A stretch of DNA of 64,000 nt from Neolewinella litorea (GTDB lineage: Bacteria > Bacteroidota > Bacteroidia > Chitinophagales > Saprospiraceae). The notes beneath the pieces were generated by a model, which made no database searches, was not told the origin of the DNA, and saw only the letters and a program-made list of their open reading frames with translations. Every line of letters starts with the position of its first letter. Position 1 is the stretch's first letter. This document shows positions 15,640 through 62,621 of this stretch, one piece after another. The translations under genes were made by a program, and so were the position numbers. The stretch lies in contig NZ_SRSF01000005.1 in the NCBI RefSeq assembly GCF_004803465.1, forward strand, positions 143,176-207,175, written 5' to 3'.

Positions 15640-16653
15640 ATGTTCCGCGTAGAACATCCCGACTATTTCTGGCTGCTCGCCCTGGTTCCCGTGGTGCTGG
15701 TGCTCTTCGTCTGGTACTGGCGGCAGCGGCGGGCGGCGCTGGATCGCTTTGCCGACCGGGAATTGATTGCGTTCCTGGCACCAGGCGTGAACCGCCGGTT
15801 GCCGTGGACGAAATTCGGACTCGTGGCCCTGAGCCTCCCCCTCCTCGTGCTGGCCCTCGCGAATCCGCAGTGGTCGGCCCAGCGCGAGGAGGTGCAGCGC
15901 CGGGGCATCGACCTGATCGTGGCCTTGGACATCAGTAACTCCATGCGGGCCGAGGACGTAAAACCAAGCCGTATGGAGCGGGCGCGGTTCTTCACCAATA
16001 CGCTCATCGACGAGCTGGCTGGGAATAACATCGGCGTGGAACTGTTCACCTGCACCGCCGTCCTGGCCGCCCCCCTGACGACCGACTACGCCTTCGTGAA
16101 GAGCGTGGTCAGCACCGCCGCCCCTTACCAAATTAGCGCGCAGGGTACCAACCTGGCCGAGGCCATCACCACCGCTGAGGCCGCCTTCGATCCGGAGAGC
16201 GCCAATCACCGTGCCCTCATCATCGTCTCCGACGGCGAGGATCACGCCGGGGAGGCCGCCGAGGCCGCGGCCCGGGCCCACGATCAGGGCCTGCTGGTCT
16301 ATACCGTAGGGGTGGGGCAGGCGAGTGGTAGCCTGATGCCCGTGCAACTCAACAACGGCCGCAGCGACTACATCCGGGAATCCGGCGGCGGACCGGCCAC
16401 CACCAGCGCCGACCTGACCACCCTGAAGGGCATCGCGCAGAGTGGCGGCGGCGCTTACTTCGCTCTCAGCGGTGACAGCGAGAACCTGGCCCAGGCCCTG
16501 CGCGCCCAGGTCGACCGCATCGAGAAGCAAGAATTCGAGACCCAGGAGTTCAGCACCTACGACAGCTACTTCTACTGGTTCCTGGCCCCAGCAGTACTCC
16601 TTCTCCTACTTGACATGGGCATCGGGCAGTACGCTGCTGCCCCCCGGCGGTAG
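15640..16653 (+). CDS. batB: BatB-like von Willebrand factor A membrane protein
   Basis: This 337-residue VWA protein has two N-terminal membrane helices (about 9-26 and 59-76) and the MIDAS motif D97-I-S99-N-S101. A second metal site is visible in VSDGEDHAGEA, and a C-terminal helix in FYWFLAPAVLLLLLDMGIG. BatB is the partner of BatA. The last eight codons (Q-Y-A-A-A-P-R-R) and the TAG stop coincide with a unit of the palindromic repeat array that begins here, so the native C-terminus seems to have been replaced by repeat sequence. A TAccTTCG element lies about 35 bases upstream of the ATG. Confidence 0.88.
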   Translation: MFRVEHPDYFWLLALVPVVLVLFVWYWRQRRAALDRFADRELIAFLAPGVNRRLPWTKFGLVALSLPLLVLALANPQWSAQREEVQRRGIDLIVALDISNSMRAEDVKPSRMERARFFTNTLIDELAGNNIGVELFTCTAVLAAPLTTDYAFVKSVVSTAAPYQISAQGTNLAEAITTAEAAFDPESANHRALIIVSDGEDHAGEAAEAAARAHDQGLLVYTVGVGQASGSLMPVQLNNGRSDYIRESGGGPATTSADLTTLKGIAQSGGGAYFALSGDSENLAQALRAQVDRIEKQEFETQEFSTYDSYFYWFLAPAVLLLLLDMGIGQYAAAPRR

Positions 16654-16733
16654 TACGATGCTGCCTCCCGGCAGCGCCAGTACAACGCTGCCTCCCGGCA
16701 GCGCCAGCAAAAGGCTGCCTCCGGCAGCGCTGC
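16629..16733 (+). repeat. Palindromic tandem repeat array A1 (27-bp units)
   Basis: Three units start at 16653, 16680 and about 16707, each reading GTACnAnGCTGCCTCCC followed by GGCAGCGCCA or a close variant. The core GCTGCC-TCCC-GGCAGC forms a hairpin. A fourth, more diverged unit (16629-16652, head GTAC) lies inside the batB coding end. The array runs head-first away from batB. The BatB stop TAG overlaps the head at 16650-16653. Confidence 0.8.
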
Positions 16734-16879
16734 ATAAAGCTAAAAATGAACTCTCTTACCGCCGCATAGACCGCCGAGTGAGTTGGGCTCCAGATGCAGC
16801 AATGCTACTGGCTTTCGATAAAGGTCCCGAGAATCTCCAGAACTATACCTCAATGGAGTTGCTCCCGCGGTAGCCGGTC

Positions 16880-16983
16880 CAGCGCGGCCGGAGGCCGCAA
16901 TGTTCTTGCGCGGTCGGAGACCGCCTTGTACTGCCGCGGTCTGAAACCGCTTCCTACTGCCGCGGCCGGAGGCCGCTTTGTAC
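16880..16983 (-). repeat. Palindromic tandem repeat array A2 (26-bp units), inverted relative to A1
   Basis: Read on the minus strand there are four 26-base units: 16983-16958, 16957-16932, 16931-16906 and 16905-16880. Their heads are GTAC, GTAG, GTAC and GAAC. Each has a palindromic core of the form GCGGYYTCMGRCCGC with paired changes in the stem (GCGGCC/GGCCGC, GCGGTC/GACCGC). The first unit encodes the end of PurN, and the head of the second supplies its TAG stop. The 146 bases between A1 and A2 (16734-16879) hold nothing I recognise. Confidence 0.8.
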
Positions 16984-28400: not shown

Positions 28401-28452
28401 GGGGATTTAATTTTAGGCCGCGAAGATAGCTAAAGGGGCGGGGGTTGGCCAG

Positions 28453-28971
28453 CGACCGGTTCGTGGTTCGTGCCCTCCGGTCGCGGGATGCGGTAGCGCC
28501 CGACCGGTTCGTGACCTCCGGTCGCGGGATGCAGTGCTGCCCGACCGGCTCGTGACCTCCGGTCGCGGGATATATTACCGCCCGACCGGAGGTCGGGAAC
28601 CATGCCCCGACCGGTTCGTGCCCTCTAGGCGCGAGATATAGTGCTGCCCGACCGGTTCGTGACCTCCGGTCGCGAGATGCAGTGTTGCCCGACCGGAGGT
28701 CGGGAACCGTGCTACCCGACCGGTTCGTGCCCTCAGGTCGCGGGATACGGTGCTGCCCGACCGGAGGTCGGAAACCGTGCCCCTGACCGGCTCGTAACCT
28801 CCAGTCGCGGGATATATTACCACCCGACCGGAGGTCGGGAACCGTGCCCCCACCGGTTCGTGCCCTCAGGTCGCGAGATACGGTACCGCCCGACCGGAGG
28901 TCGGGAACCATGACCCCACCGCTTCGTGCCCTCAGGTTGCGAGATAAAGTACCGCCCGACCGGAGGTCGGG
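28453..28971. repeat. Compound palindromic repeat array B between glyS and the GCS-CBS gene
   Basis: About 520 bases are built from two alternating elements. The longer, about 42 bases, begins CGACCGGTTCGTG and contains CTCCGGTCGCGGGAT; its ends CGACCGG/CCGGTCG can pair. The shorter, about 25 bases, is CCGACC-GGA-GGTCGG followed by GAACCGTGCC. About eight long and six short copies occur, mostly alternating. Apparent proteins read from it (rich in P-D-L-R-S-G) are translations of the repeat and not genes. It lies between two divergent starts (28400 and 29045). The flanks hold no other feature that I see. Confidence 0.85.
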
Positions 28972-29044
28972 AGCAGCGACCCTCGCACCTGCGGCCCCGG
29001 CCCCATGTTCGGCTGATGTACCTTAGAGCCAACCGGAAGTACTT

Positions 29045-30970: not shown

Positions 30971-31127
30971 TTTAGGATTTACAATCTTAATTTACCATTG
31001 GGGCGCGCCGTACTTCGTCGGTACAGACCCGGGAGTAGCAATTGACCGATCACTGCTTTTGAAGAGGTACACCACTGGAGGTGCGGGGCCGTGCGGTAGC
31101 AACATCGAAAATTGTAAATCCTAAATT
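30969..31127. repeat. Short element with 17-bp terminal inverted repeats, copy 1 of a duplicated sequence
   Basis: GATTTAGGATTTACAAT (30969-30985) and ATTGTAAATCCTAAATT (31111-31127) are inverted copies matching at 16 of 17 positions. They bound a 159-base segment that starts on the stop codon of the upstream gene. No ORF of note lies inside. The interior is repeated in diverged form at 31197-31329. The size and ends resemble a miniature inverted-repeat element, but no target duplication is clear. The 69 bases between the copies hold nothing that I recognise. Confidence 0.6.
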
Positions 31128-31196
31128 CAAACCCTTCCCCTAGTCGCCTGACGAATGGAAGTGAGGTGTGAAATGCGATTCTCGGCTTCTCATTAA

Positions 31197-31329
31197 CGAT
31201 TGGGAAGATGCCGCTGTACCTTGTTGCCCCGACCCATCTGGTGAGCAATTGACTAATCGCTGCGTTTGGGGAGGTAAACAGCCGGGAAGGGCGGGAGCCA
31301 TGCGGCAGCAACATCGAAAATCGTAAATC
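31197..31329. repeat. Copy 2 of the duplicated sequence, directly upstream of prs
   Basis: About 130 bases align with the interior of the element at 30969-31127. Shared anchors include GCAATTGAC, GAGGTA, GTAGCAACATCGAAAA/GCAGCAACATCGAAAA and GTAAATC. The AT-rich end motif recurs just downstream at 31333-31346 (AATTGTAAATCTTA) and runs into the ATG of prs at 31347. The duplication therefore makes up the whole region where the prs promoter should lie. Confidence 0.6.
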
Positions 31330-31346
31330 AGAAATTGTAAATCTTA

Positions 31347-32334: not shown

Positions 32335-35300
32335 ATGCCCTCACGTAAGCTCTACGATTACAACGCCTCTTTCCGGGCCGAGCTCGCGCGCCTCAACGAC
32401 CGGCAGCGCGCCGCCGTGGAGGCCGTGGAAGGACCGGTGATGGTACTGGCCGGTCCGGGCACCGGCAAGACCCACCTGCTCGCCGCGCGGATCGGAAATA
32501 TCCTGCTGCGCACCGACGCCGGCGCCCAGAATATCCTCTGCCTGACCTTCACCGACGCCGGCGTGAAGGCCATGCGCGAGCGGCTGCTGAGCTTCATCGG
32601 TCCGGAAGCGCACCGCGTAAGCATCTTCACTTTCCACAGTTTCTGCAGCCAGGTCATCCAGCACAACCTGCACTACTTCGGCCGGCCCGGCCTCGAACCG
32701 CTTTCGGAACTCGAGCGCATCCGCATCATCCGCGACCTGCTCGACCGGCTGCCGCAAACCGACCCCCTGCGACTCGGCTACCACGAAACCTACCACTACG
32801 AGGACCACCTGCAGGACCTCTTCGCCCAGATGAAGGCTGAGAACTGGACCGAGGACGAAATGCAGCAGCGCATCACCACCTACGTTGACGGACTGGAGCG
32901 CCACCCCGACTTCACCTACCAGCGCAAGTACAAGGACAAGCAGGCCGGCGACCCCAAGACCGGTCTGATCGAGGAGGAGCGCGGCCGTATGGCCAAACTC
33001 GCTTCGGCCGTCAGTCTCTTCCCCCGCTACCAGGAAGCCCTGCGGCAGCAGCGGCGGTACGATTACGGCGACATGATCGGCTGGGTACTGCGGGCCTTCC
33101 ACGATCATCCGGCGCTGCTGCGCAGTTACCAGGAACGCTTCCGGTACCTACTGGTAGACGAGTTCCAGGACACCAACGGCAGCCAGGAACGCATCATTCG
33201 CCTGCTGACCGACTACTGGGAAAATCCCAACATCTTCATCGTCGGCGACGACGACCAGGCCATCTACGAGTTCCAGGGCGCCCGCCTCAACGCCATGGTC
33301 GACTTTCACAACCGCTACGCGCGGGACCTCACCGTGGTCACGCTCACCGAGAATTACCGCAGTATACAACCCATCCTCAACGGCGCGGAGGCCGTCATCA
33401 ACCGCAATGTCCTGCGCATCGGCGACCGGCTGCCCCACCGCGACATCGACAAGCGGCTCAACAGCAACTCAGCGGGCGCGGACGCGGGTGCCGTACCAGC
33501 AGAAGGGGCCGGGCCACGTGGCATCACCTACCGCAGCTTCCCCGACCACCGGCAGGAAACCGGGTACCTCGTAGGCCAGCTCAAGCACTGGCACGAAGCC
33601 GGCATTCCGTGGTCGGAAATGGCCGTCATCTACGCCAAACACAGTCAGGCCGACCTGCTCCGCCACCTGCTCGAGCGGGCGGGGATTCCCTACCGTAGCA
33701 AGCGACGCCCCAACGTGCTCGACGGCCGACCGGTACGCCAGTTGCGCGATCTGCTGCGCTACCTGCACGCCGAGTACGAGCGCCCGGGAACGGGGGAGTA
33801 CCTGATTTTCCGCATTTTGCATTTCCGCTGCTTCGGCCTGCGGCCCCACGATCTGTCGCTCGTCAATCTCGGGCGCCTCGACGCCGTTGACGTTCACGGC
33901 CGCTTCCCCGGCTGGCGGGAGTACCTGCAACAGGCGGAGCTGTACCCCTACGGCGTGGAGGAGGGAGCCGCCCTTCACCGGGTGGCCGGCTGGCTGGAGG
34001 AGGCAATCGGGCGGATTGGCAGCCTGCCCCTGGCGGAACTGGTGGAGTACGTGCTCAACGGTTCCGGTTTGCTGGCTGGCGTACTGCGTGATCCCAACCG
34101 GGCGGAACTGCTGCAGCATCTGGCGACCTTTACCGACTTTGTACTGCGCGAACTGTCGCGCCGGCCCCGCCTCACCCTGCGTGACCTGCTGGAAACCCTT
34201 GACCAGATGGATGGCAACCGCATCGAGCTGCCACTGCGTTCCCACCTGGATCAGGCCGACGCGGTACTGCTGGTCACGGCCCATAGTGCCAAGGGCCTGG
34301 AGTTCGAAAAGGTCTGGATGCTCGACTGCTCGGAAAAGAGCTGGGGCCCCGGCGGGGGCCGCTCCCGCAGCCGCTTCAAATTGCCCGACACCCTCACCTA
34401 CGCCGGTACGGAGGACGAGGAGGAGGCCCGGCGCCGGTTGTTCTTCGTGGCCCTCACGCGGGCGCGCTCCGAGGTGGTGCTTTCCTGCGCGGAGTTCAGC
34501 AGCAAAGACAAACTTCAGCAGCACGTCGCCTTCGTGGACGAACTGATGGATGGCGGCGACGTAGCGCACCGGGAAACCAACCTCGACGCCGCCATTCTCG
34601 ACGAACTGGCGCTGCTGCAACTGAGTCCGAAAGACCCCGCCCGCTTCCCCCTGCTGGAGCGCAGCGCGATCGATCAGTTGCTGTCCGAGTTCCGGTTGAG
34701 TGTGAGCGCACTGTATGCCTACCTGGATTGCCCCCTGCGGTTCTACTACGAAAAGCTGCTCCGCGTGCCCGACCGGGAGCGGGAACGTACCGTCTACGGC
34801 TCTGCCCTGCACGAGGCGCTGCAGGATTACTTCCTGCGGATGAAGCGGGACCCCGACCACGCCTTCCCCAGCCGGGAGGAGTTGGTGTACAACTTCGAGA
34901 TCGCCCTGGCCAAGCGGCGCGGGCTATTGTCCCGCAAAGGCTACGAAAGCCGTCTGGAACGCGGCCGCCGGGAGTTGGTCACCTACTACGATACTTTCCG
35001 AAAGGACTGGGTCAACGACGTGGAAATTGAATACCTGATCCGCAACGCCGAAGTGGATGGCATCCCCCTCACGGGCATCATCGACCGTATCGATGTGATG
35101 AGCGACGCCTACGTTCGCGTGGTGGATTACAAAACGAGCACCGCCGGTAGCGGTAAGCTCCGCCGGCCGTCAAAGACCAACCCCTACGGCGGAGACTACT
35201 GGCGGCAGCTGACCTTTTACAAGCTCTTGTACGACAACCGGCCCGGCAACCTGCGCCGTGTCAAGGAGGGCCGCATCAGCTACCTGCTCACCAACCCCGA

Positions 35301-35514
35301 CGGCCAGCAAACCGAAGAGCGCATCGAACTGATGACGAAGGACACCGACGCCCTGCGGAAGATCCTGCGCGATACCTGGGAAGCCATTCAGGACCACCAG
35401 TTCACCGGTTGCGGCAAACCGGACTGTGAGTGGTGCCGCTTCGCCCGCGACCTCACCGATGAGGTGCCACTGGAGGCCACCGAGGCGGTTTATGGGCTGG
35501 ATGATTCGGCGTAG
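32335..35514 (+). CDS. UvrD/PcrA-family helicase fused to a PD-(D/E)xK nuclease with probable Fe-S cluster
   Basis: This is a 1059-residue protein. The N-terminal part is a superfamily 1 helicase: Walker A AGPGTGKT (39-46), Walker B YLLVDEFQDTNGSQE, the DDDQAIYEFQGA motif, TENYRS, and SAKGLEFEKVW further on. The C-terminal part is a RecB/AddB-like nuclease with D917, D931 and K933 (GIIDRID...VDYK). Four cysteines, C799 (CPLRFYY) and C1026, C1031 and C1034 (CGKPDCEWC), are placed as in AddB-type 4Fe-4S nucleases. It probably processes DNA ends in repair. No second AddAB-like subunit is adjacent. The TAG stop is the GTAG head of the first repeat of array C. Confidence 0.92.
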   Translation: MPSRKLYDYNASFRAELARLNDRQRAAVEAVEGPVMVLAGPGTGKTHLLAARIGNILLRTDAGAQNILCLTFTDAGVKAMRERLLSFIGPEAHRVSIFTFHSFCSQVIQHNLHYFGRPGLEPLSELERIRIIRDLLDRLPQTDPLRLGYHETYHYEDHLQDLFAQMKAENWTEDEMQQRITTYVDGLERHPDFTYQRKYKDKQAGDPKTGLIEEERGRMAKLASAVSLFPRYQEALRQQRRYDYGDMIGWVLRAFHDHPALLRSYQERFRYLLVDEFQDTNGSQERIIRLLTDYWENPNIFIVGDDDQAIYEFQGARLNAMVDFHNRYARDLTVVTLTENYRSIQPILNGAEAVINRNVLRIGDRLPHRDIDKRLNSNSAGADAGAVPAEGAGPRGITYRSFPDHRQETGYLVGQLKHWHEAGIPWSEMAVIYAKHSQADLLRHLLERAGIPYRSKRRPNVLDGRPVRQLRDLLRYLHAEYERPGTGEYLIFRILHFRCFGLRPHDLSLVNLGRLDAVDVHGRFPGWREYLQQAELYPYGVEEGAALHRVAGWLEEAIGRIGSLPLAELVEYVLNGSGLLAGVLRDPNRAELLQHLATFTDFVLRELSRRPRLTLRDLLETLDQMDGNRIELPLRSHLDQADAVLLVTAHSAKGLEFEKVWMLDCSEKSWGPGGGRSRSRFKLPDTLTYAGTEDEEEARRRLFFVALTRARSEVVLSCAEFSSKDKLQQHVAFVDELMDGGDVAHRETNLDAAILDELALLQLSPKDPARFPLLERSAIDQLLSEFRLSVSALYAYLDCPLRFYYEKLLRVPDRERERTVYGSALHEALQDYFLRMKRDPDHAFPSREELVYNFEIALAKRRGLLSRKGYESRLERGRRELVTYYDTFRKDWVNDVEIEYLIRNAEVDGIPLTGIIDRIDVMSDAYVRVVDYKTSTAGSGKLRRPSKTNPYGGDYWRQLTFYKLLYDNRPGNLRRVKEGRISYLLTNPDGQQTEERIELMTKDTDALRKILRDTWEAIQDHQFTGCGKPDCEWCRFARDLTDEVPLEATEAVYGLDDSA

Positions 35515-36140
35515 CGCCGGGGCGAGCCGCCAAGCTGTTATGAATACAGGCAGCCTGGCGACTAACAGTCGCCGCTACAGTGTATATCCGTCGGCATTCG
35601 TAGCGCCGGCTTGAGCCGGCAAGCTGCAATGGATGCGAGCAACATGATAGCTGAAGCCCTCGCGAAAAGCTGAATTACGGGCAGCATGACGGCTGAAGCC
35701 GTCGCTACGGGGCGTTTTCTGTTATTCGTAGCGCCGGCTTGAGCCGGCAAGCTGCTCTATATGCGGGCAGTGTGACGGACGAAGCCGTCGCAAATCGCTG
35801 ATTTACGGGCAGCATGAGGGCTAAGGCCGTTTTTCTGTTATTCGTAGCGCCGGCTTTAGCCGGCAAGCTGCAATGGATGCGAGCAACATGATGGCTGAAG
35901 CCGTCGCTACGAGACGTTTTCTGTTATTCGTAGCGCCGGCTTGAGCCGGCAAGCTGTTGGGAATGCGGGCATTAGGACGGGCGAAGCCGTAGCAAAAGCT
36001 GATTTACAGGCAGCATGACTGCTAAAGCCGTCACTAAGGGGCGTTTTCTGTCATTCGTAGCGCCGGCTTGAGCCGGCAAGCTGCTATATATGGGGGCAGA
36101 ATGACTGCTAAAGCCGTCGCTACGGGGCTGAAGTCGCTAC
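35511..36140. repeat. REP/BIME-type palindromic repeat array C
   Basis: Six forward units with head GTAG and body CGCCGGCTTGAGCCGG then CAAGCTG start at 35511 (diverged), 35600, 35728, 35844, 35930 and 36057. Between them are inverted partners ending GCTGAAGCCGTCGCTAC (reverse GTAGCGACGGCTTCAGC), for example at about 35687-35707, 35894-35910 and 36106-36122, plus decayed copies. Spacers contain a shared GGGGCGTTTTCTGTTATTC-like segment. GTAG heads face outward at both ends. The array exactly fills the gap between two convergent genes and supplies both of their stop codons. This layout is that of bacterial REP elements paired as BIMEs. Confidence 0.88.
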
Positions 36141-36778
36141 AGGAAGGGGTTTTCCCGCCGTTCCTCACCGATGGTGGTGGTGGGGCCGTGCCCGGGGTAA
36201 ACCACCGTTTGATCGGGGAGGGGCATCAGCTTGGTGAGGATGGAACCGATAAGGGTATCGTGATCGCCTAAGGGCAGGTCGGTGCGGCCGATAGATCTTT
36301 GAAACAGGACGTCGCCCGCGATGAGGTAATCTTCCGCGCGGTTGTAGAAGCAGATGCTGCCTGGAGAATGGCCCGGACAGAAAAGCACCTCAAAGGTGGC
36401 CGTACCCAAGGTCACGGTATCTCCATCATGGATGAAGTAGTCCGGGGCGGGAGAGGCCGTCATAGGGGGCAAGCCATAGGCCTGAACGATCATCGGCGCG
36501 GCTTCGAGGATCTGCTGCTCCAGGGGATGGATCCCCAATTGAAGACCGTAACGCTCCACAACGAACGCGTTGCCGAAGATGTGGTCGAAATGGCAGTGGG
36601 TGTTGATCAGCTTTACGGGCTTCAGGCCCAACCGGTCGATCGTCGCGGCCAGTTCCCGTTCCTCGGCCGGCGTGAAGGCACCCGGATCGAAGATGATGGC
36701 CTCCTTGGTGTCGTTGTCGTAGACTAGGTAGGTATTTTCCTGGACGGGATTCTGGGTCAGGGTATTTACGGTGGTCAT
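36137..36778 (-). CDS. MBL-fold metallo-hydrolase (glyoxalase II-like)
   Basis: This 213-residue protein starts at ATG 36778, four codons inside a longer frame. The metal-binding motif is THCHFDHIFG, followed by a His in CPGHSPGS, a bridging Asp in LIAGDVLF and the last His in VYPGHGP. The substitution Cys in THCHFDH is common in this hydroxyacylglutathione hydrolase-like subfamily. The substrate is probably a thioester or a similar small molecule. The TAG stop is formed by the outermost GTAG of repeat array C. Confidence 0.9.
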   Translation of the reverse strand: MTTVNTLTQNPVQENTYLVYDNDTKEAIIFDPGAFTPAEERELAATIDRLGLKPVKLINTHCHFDHIFGNAFVVERYGLQLGIHPLEQQILEAAPMIVQAYGLPPMTASPAPDYFIHDGDTVTLGTATFEVLFCPGHSPGSICFYNRAEDYLIAGDVLFQRSIGRTDLPLGDHDTLIGSILTKLMPLPDQTVVYPGHGPTTTIGEERRENPFL

Positions 36779-36879
36779 TGGAAAGTACAAAGTTTGAAGA
36801 ACGAAATACGAAGTAGGAAGGTGCTACCGGGAGCCGTGTCCACAGGAACTGCAGGCGATGCACCCGCGCCCCGCCGCAC

Positions 36880-62276: not shown

Positions 62277-62314
62277 ACCAGCCAAAACAGGTACAGGCCG
62301 AATAGGGTTCTCCG

Positions 62315-62490
62315 GTAAGATGCGGCCTCAGGCCGCGCTGGTACAATGCGGCCTCAGGCCGCGAAAGCAAAATGCGGCCTCAGGCCGCGATGGTAAGATG
62401 CGGCCTCAGGCCGCGAGAGTAAAATGCGGCCTCAGGCCGCGAAAGCAGGATGCGGCCTCGGGCTGCGCAGTGGAATGCGGCTTCCCCGGA
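62315..62490 (+). repeat. Tandem 26-bp palindromic repeat array D
   Basis: Seven units start at 62315, 62341, 62367, 62393, 62419, 62445 and 62470; five are exactly 26 bases. The form is G[TC]A[ACG]nATGCGGCCTC followed by AGGCCGCG and three variable bases. The 15-base core GCGGCCTCAGGCCGC is an almost perfect palindrome. Array A2 units differ only slightly (GTACAAAGCGGCCTCC versus GTACAATGCGGCCTCA). The last unit is diverged. The remaining gap (62491-62621) holds no gene that I see; on the minus strand it has a T-run just after the purS stop. Confidence 0.88.
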
Positions 62491-62621
62491 ATTACCCCGG
62501 CACCTGCGCGCCGCCGCAATACGGCAGACAAACAACCACAAGCGCGTTACCCATCAATGAAGCGAGGAATAACTGCCAGCGACTACCGGGCTAAACTACC
62601 AATAGACCAAAAAAACCACCC

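Follow-up and report, generated by a model that had tools for sequence, protein, structure and literature searches.

GTAG-headed palindromic repeats (REPs) of the Neolewinella group often abut the stop codons of neighboring genes exactly: the coincidence is seen at both ends of one array in N. litorea, it recurs as a sharp spike across the genus, the same stops are present at this locus in relatives that carry no REP, and the genome holds a RAYT gene flanked by these REPs. We propose—with a probability of about 0.5—that RAYT-associated REPs land 3′ of GTAGs that already exist, and that TAG stops are the main GTAGs where landing is safe.

A repeat array that begins and ends on stop codons

The window analyzed here, a stretch of 64,000 nucleotides of N. 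litorea DNA, holds a REP array (“array C”) between two convergent genes. The first encodes a helicase-nuclease with a UvrD-like helicase and a PD-(D/E)XK nuclease (32335..35514, plus strand; ORF list, Pfam PF00580, PF12705 and PF13361, and orthologs), and shares 91% identity with N. marina, 80–83% with seven further Neolewinella, Lewinella and Saprospiraceae records, and less with the rest. The second encodes a metallo-beta-lactamase-fold hydrolase (36137..36790, minus strand, start uncertain; ORF list and Pfam PF00753). The helicase-nuclease stop, TAG 35512-35514, lies inside GTAG 35511-35514, the head of the outermost forward REP unit, and the hydrolase stop, TAG 36139-36137, lies inside the minus-strand GTAG 36140-36137 (plus-strand CTAC 36137-36140). 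The coordinates confirm what the first-pass annotation of this DNA had claimed, i.e., that array C spans the gap between the two genes and that both TAG stops fall within GTAG heads. The outermost units are decayed.

Array C is built of 27-nt units (e.g., GTAGCG-CCGGCTTGAGCCGGC-AAGCTG) in both orientations and at several spacings, an observation on this array alone that bears on REPIN/BIME inverted-pair units. The loose unit scan gave 6.5 matches per shuffled sequence, so only matches with at most three errors were used. The outermost forward unit (35511..35537, plus strand) has a decayed stem and folds no better than its own shuffles, though its head GTAG, which holds the helicase stop, and its tail AAGCTG are kept. 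Next to it stands an inverted unit, GTAGCGGCGACTGTTAGTCGCCAGGCTG (35551..35578, minus strand), followed by an intact forward unit (35600..35626, plus strand) and an intact inverted unit (35682..35708, minus strand), both found by pattern match and unit scan and both intact on folding. Pattern match and unit scan also agree on three further intact forward units (35728..35754, 35930..35956 and 36057..36083, plus strand) and on a forward unit with the loop TTTAG (35844..35870, plus strand). Two inverted units were found by pattern match, one with a single stem change (35890..35910, minus strand; G000:C35:179065-179085) and one with stem decay (36103..36123, minus strand; G000:C35:179278-179298). 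The outermost inverted unit, GTAGCGACTTCAGCC (36126..36140, minus strand), is truncated, and its head at 36140-36137 holds the hydrolase stop.

GTAG REPs and a cognate RAYT

Across 269 canonical units the consensus is GTAG-CGACGGCTTNAGCCGTC-AN-GCTG, and this consensus, like the two intact window units that were folded, has an unpaired GTAG at the end of a palindrome of 20–40 nt; in the two folded units the head is in part able to pair with the tail as well. The window genome holds 76 unit matches at three or fewer mismatches, and at the loci fetched for the offset count below 23 of 408 units are centered within a called gene, so that the family is present in many copies, mostly outside genes. 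On the 3′ side of the hairpin each base of GCT is conserved in at least 93% of the 269 units, and this GCT pairs with the AGC of the head in both units folded. Such conservation and pairing would be predicted by GTAG-guided cleavage at CT, the geometry proposed in PMC8266576, in which GTAG serves as the guide and cleavage takes place at CT.

A cognate RAYT flanked by the repeats is present in the window genome (L049:4195-4953). It scores 86.7 bits on NF047646 (cut-off 80), its sequence matches TnpArep (PDB 4er8, E 3e-4), these REPs lie on both sides of it, and the gene's own end falls on the head of a REP whose stem has one change. A Pfam search for Y1_Tnp gave at least one gene in each of 17 genomes searched and did not list this RAYT, which was found among the contact genes. 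The REPs are probably spread by the genome's RAYT. As a separate observation, RAYT genes of three genomes (L049:4195-4953, L141:4521-5213 and L103:4760-5194) each end on a REP head, the L103 copy having a shortened open frame (187 aa, vs. 233 in L141).

Stop-to-head offsets across the genus

The unit pattern had exact matches in 10 of 40 genomes searched. Around these matches, 109 REP loci were fetched from nine genomes including the window's own, whose loci came from among the matches listed; G010, which also has unit matches, lies outside the fetched loci. Gene ends were taken from a codon-usage caller written for the analysis (correct at 7/7 annotated E. coli ends checked), and the offset was counted from the stop to the nearest head-first unit for genes with a REP within 150 nt, these being the genes at the fetched loci and not a random genome sample.

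The offset was exactly 0 in 43 of 94 genes, and every other offset was found in at most four (44/95 if one doubtful row, L052, is included; it is a GTAG hairpin and not a REP, and was left out of the 44 contacts). Uniform placement would put less than 1% of genes at offset 0 (p ~1e-67), and chance as the cause of the genus-wide spike is ruled out by this count. By genome, the share at offset 0 was 11/20 in G017, 11/26 in G004, 8/12 in G002, 6/15 in G007, 3/8 in G012, 2/10 in G000, 1/2 in G016 and 1/1 in G005, with none in G023. Tail-first units at the same fetched loci show no favored offset from the stop. Beyond the 43/94, 15 further GTAGCG candidate stops sit on decayed or partial units, both array C ends among them; they stand outside the counts because the unit pattern overlooks decayed units. 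Counted at the 109 loci, random offsets of heads from stops are contradicted by the spike at 0, and the generality that the first-pass annotation had put as an “if” is supported within the genus.

The abutment is absent from the E. coli stretches used as a control. In seven MG1655 stretches (~349 kb) we found 40 REP heads, 19 of them near a same-strand gene end, and offset 0 occurred in 0/19 of these. The GTAG supply at the stop in these stretches, 8/61 sites in a count that includes REP heads, gives an expectation of ~2.5 contacts, and TAG makes up 16 of 258 stops. The 0/19 fits a low GTAG supply and also a different REP type.

These distributions bear on the possibility that a hairpin just behind a stop is useful in itself, through protection of mRNA ends or slowing of terminating ribosomes, with selection on spacing giving the exact coincidence. 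E. coli REPs up to 15 nt from the stop are reported in passages of PMC12306157 to lower translation, and in our loci REPs at 1–12 nt past the stop also exceed the GTAG supply (see below). Yet such an effect should be smooth, and 43 genes lie at offset 0 vs. at most four at each of the offsets 1 to 12; moreover, none of the 19 heads in E. coli, the species from which the effect is reported, lies at 0. We consider a useful hairpin an improbable source of the spike.

The same stops in REP-free relatives

At array C the REP-free comparison covered relatives with at least 70% C-terminal identity. All six REP-free relatives of the helicase stop at the same codon, five of them with TAG, as do all six of the hydrolase, four with TAG, and N. 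marina has GTAG at both gene ends and no array. The claim that the array provides both stops is therefore rejected at this locus, where 12/12 REP-free relatives share the codon, often already as TAG; judged by these alignments, the array C stops predate the array. The hydrolase stop also bears a REP in Lewinella sp. JB7 and N. aquimaris (L102, L154) and none in N. marina, the closest relative, a pattern of recurrent insertion or loss.

Taking all nine gene families together, the position of the stop codon is shared by 24 of 45 REP-free orthologs (14 of the 24 with TAG, nine with GTAG), and ordinary GTAG-ending genes give 23 of 39 by the same measure (13 of the 23 with TAG, 10 with GTAG), which is no detectable difference with our own locus included (p = 0.66). 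Half of the 24 shared codons come from that locus, and without it the contact families give 12/33 (5/12 TAG) vs. 23/39 (p = 0.06). One or more relatives that stop at the same codon were found for 7/9 contact families vs. 17/19 ordinary genes. Three rows (L051 helicase, L051 hydrolase and L107) were excluded as decayed REPs, taking the orthologs from 48 to 45, the shared codons from 27 to 24 and the families from ten to nine. In the close pairs of L096 and L050 the empty site reads GTAA, not GTAG, and a clean empty/filled junction, sought in very close strain pairs among the genomes compared, was not found. In family L091, a filled site (L190, G004) has the REP directly behind the stop with the head CTAG, the first base of which is a free third codon position. 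Taken at the level of sequence, these comparisons suggest that stops older than the repeat are common at other loci as well, and that some stops may be REP-made.

The opposite order of events would have the REP carry its own GTAG, insert near gene ends and, where the head falls in frame, create a new stop that is then kept by selection. The families L121 (0/3) and L062 (0/5) are what such an origin predicts, as none of their eight REP-free relatives shares the stop codon; the lower sharing once the array C locus is set aside points the same way, a passage in Di Nocera, De Gregorio and Rocco (PMC3733652) phrases REPs as providing the stop, and a second array in the window (“array A,” below) probably gave one gene, purN, a tail from another repeat. 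Against this origin stand the 12/12 relatives at array C, and the rarity of units inside genes. With random insertion into coding ends, two of the three frames should carry the gene into the unit or past it (units with a CTTGAG loop offer an internal TGA in one frame), yet a stop 1–60 nt beyond the head was found in four contacts only, vs. 43 at 0, in a count that covers read-through up to 60 nt. We judge stop creation unlikely as the general account. The first-pass annotation had offered two causes, insertion targeting TAG and selection for insertions that keep or create a stop: targeting of (G)TAG fits best here, and creation is possible in L121 and L062, i.e., two of the nine families.

GTAG supply and sequence context at contact stops

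If REPs join existing GTAGs wherever this does no harm, the spike should follow from where such GTAGs lie. As a supply null we took 220 GTAGs whose 3′ junction is non-coding and which lie at the stops of 525 REP-free genes or up to 150 nt past them; 75 of these (34%) are the stop itself. The observed share at the stop is 46% (43/94; p = 0.06 against supply), and it is 42% (37/88; p = 0.19) after orthologous contacts were collapsed by removing six orthologous repeats listed by hand. GTAG supply accounts for most of the offset-0 spike. Heads at 1–12 nt past the stop exceed the supply (18/51 vs. 14/145, p = 9e-5), so that an additional pull towards gene ends remains.

Contact stops also differ in context from REP-free GTAG stops, at two positions that were picked after viewing the table and in a set where some contacts are orthologous. 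C stands at −3 in 26/43 contact stops vs. 19/82 REP-free GTAG stops (p = 7e-5), an excess that persists on stratification by genome (seven genomes, p = 0.002; two others with hardly any data were omitted), and T stands at −1 in 22/43 vs. 17/82. The −3 base belongs to the gene, and the C preference points to target choice.

A proposed landing rule

We propose that new REP copies would attach directly 3′ of a chromosomal GTAG that is already present. Where genes are densely packed, insertion within a gene would mostly be harmful, and the commonest harmless GTAG near gene ends would be a TAG stop preceded by G; REPs would for this reason pile up exactly on stops. At array C, one copy would have settled behind the helicase stop and a second behind the hydrolase stop on the opposite strand, the array then growing between them. 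This order of events, like the precedence of stops over REPs as a general rule, is what we infer from the comparisons above, and the RAYT would be the enzyme that carries out the insertion and joining. More tentatively, a wider rule may hold: GTAG would be the landing site, with REPs inserting 3′ of it and perhaps preferring C at −3, the TAG stop would be the attachment site, and stop-codon usage would set both the places and the numbers of REPs. Such a rule would explain the abutment in Neolewinella, where 41% of REP-free stops are TAG, and its absence from the E. coli stretches, where TAG stops are few.

Identical junctions would also arise from the four shared bases if recombination or template switching between short GTAG homologies produced the copies and no RAYT cleaved the target, and the growth of the array and its decayed edges suggest local copying. 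The REP-flanked RAYT and the C preference at −3, which falls outside GTAG, lean against homology of this kind, each being compatible with it all the same. We give copying by homology little weight, and GTAG would more naturally serve as a target than as a short stretch of homology for copying.

The landing of REPs 3′ of GTAG has an analogy in IS200/IS605 elements such as IS608, summarized in PMC8266576: these move by single-strand HUH transposition, and guide sequences 5′ of their hairpins choose the cleavage sites and, in IS608, also the target. The likeness is limited to the target sequence remaining on the 5′ side, and no such element was seen moving here.

Relation to published REPs

That GTAG REPs often provide TAG stops has been in print since 2013, in the passage of Di Nocera, De Gregorio and Rocco cited above (PMC3733652). 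Their GTAG-tagged REPs likewise have a GTAG head and a short palindrome and lie between convergent or co-directional genes. Counts and a comparison with REP-free genes are absent from that passage; the present analysis adds offset counts for a genus of Bacteroidota and finds the stop older than the repeat at the locus of the finding. The stop-providing rule is thus already published in qualitative form. In the literature searched we found no stop-offset count, REP-free comparison or GTAG target model.

REPtrons (a RAYT/TnpAREP with its cognate REPs), as treated in passages of PMC2817692 and PMC8266576, likewise have a REP-flanked RAYT, a hairpin-adjacent GTAG and a conserved CT 3′ of the hairpin; they differ in that TnpAREP cleavage is published at CT or CA, and those passages name no REP insertion target, GTAG included. 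The SMAG repeats of Stenotrophomonas maltophilia (PMC2613905) are likewise GTAG-headed short palindromes that form tandem arrays with flanking DNA, and their copy number varies between strains. They have another palindrome and another host, and the word “stop” is absent from the main text of that report.

If stop codons are landing pads, the qualitative aside of 2013 turns into a rule of targeting that can be tested, with an explicit substrate for a strand-transfer assay, and annotators are warned that a TAG stop adjacent to a repeat need not be made by the repeat.

Array A and other repeats in the window

Array A (16620-16980, between batB and purN) is made of the palindromes GCTGCCTCCCGGCAGC (forward) and GCGGYCTCCGRCCGC (reverse) with a period of 26–27 nt. 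The batB and purN genes each read through one palindrome and then meet a TAG in the linker, which at other copies reads, e.g., CAGTAC, CAGCAA or AAGAAC. Both GTAGs of array A were checked, and neither is the head of a repeat unit; they are located in the linker of a different palindrome. The extended end of the window purN recurs in N. marina purN, which stops at the same place with TAA instead of TAG. Of the ten other purN relatives, six end just past the conserved ...YWR..R.L, and the remaining four carry different tails. The array A repeat probably extended purN, by comparison of these gene ends, in a process separate from the GTAG-head rule.

The pooling of arrays A and C as one rule is rejected, given the different palindromes and the position of the array A TAGs in the linker. 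Since array A is a different repeat family, the “four of four” gene ends of the first-pass annotation become two on GTAG REPs plus two of another kind: all four do end in TAG, and the support from GTAG REPs is 2/2 once the merged families are separated. TAG accounts for 23/53 stops in the window and 216/525 (41%) in REP-free genes, and from this share four TAGs of four by chance alone has a probability of ~0.03. The four TAGs by themselves are only mildly surprising; the genus-wide offsets lie far beyond chance.

Three further repeats lie in the window. At 28440-28980, ~41-nt units (GGTTCGTGACCTCCGGTCGCGGGAT..CCCGACCGG) form a dense array in the gap that separates the start of a gene carrying tRNA-synthetase class II and anticodon-binding domains from its neighbor. 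The stretch 62288-62493 is a tandem of 26-nt units that contain the palindrome TGCGGCCTCAGGCCGCG and are akin to the array A reverse units. Two 52-nt direct repeats (31085-31136 and 31294-31345), 81% alike, lie upstream of a ribose-phosphate pyrophosphokinase-like gene.
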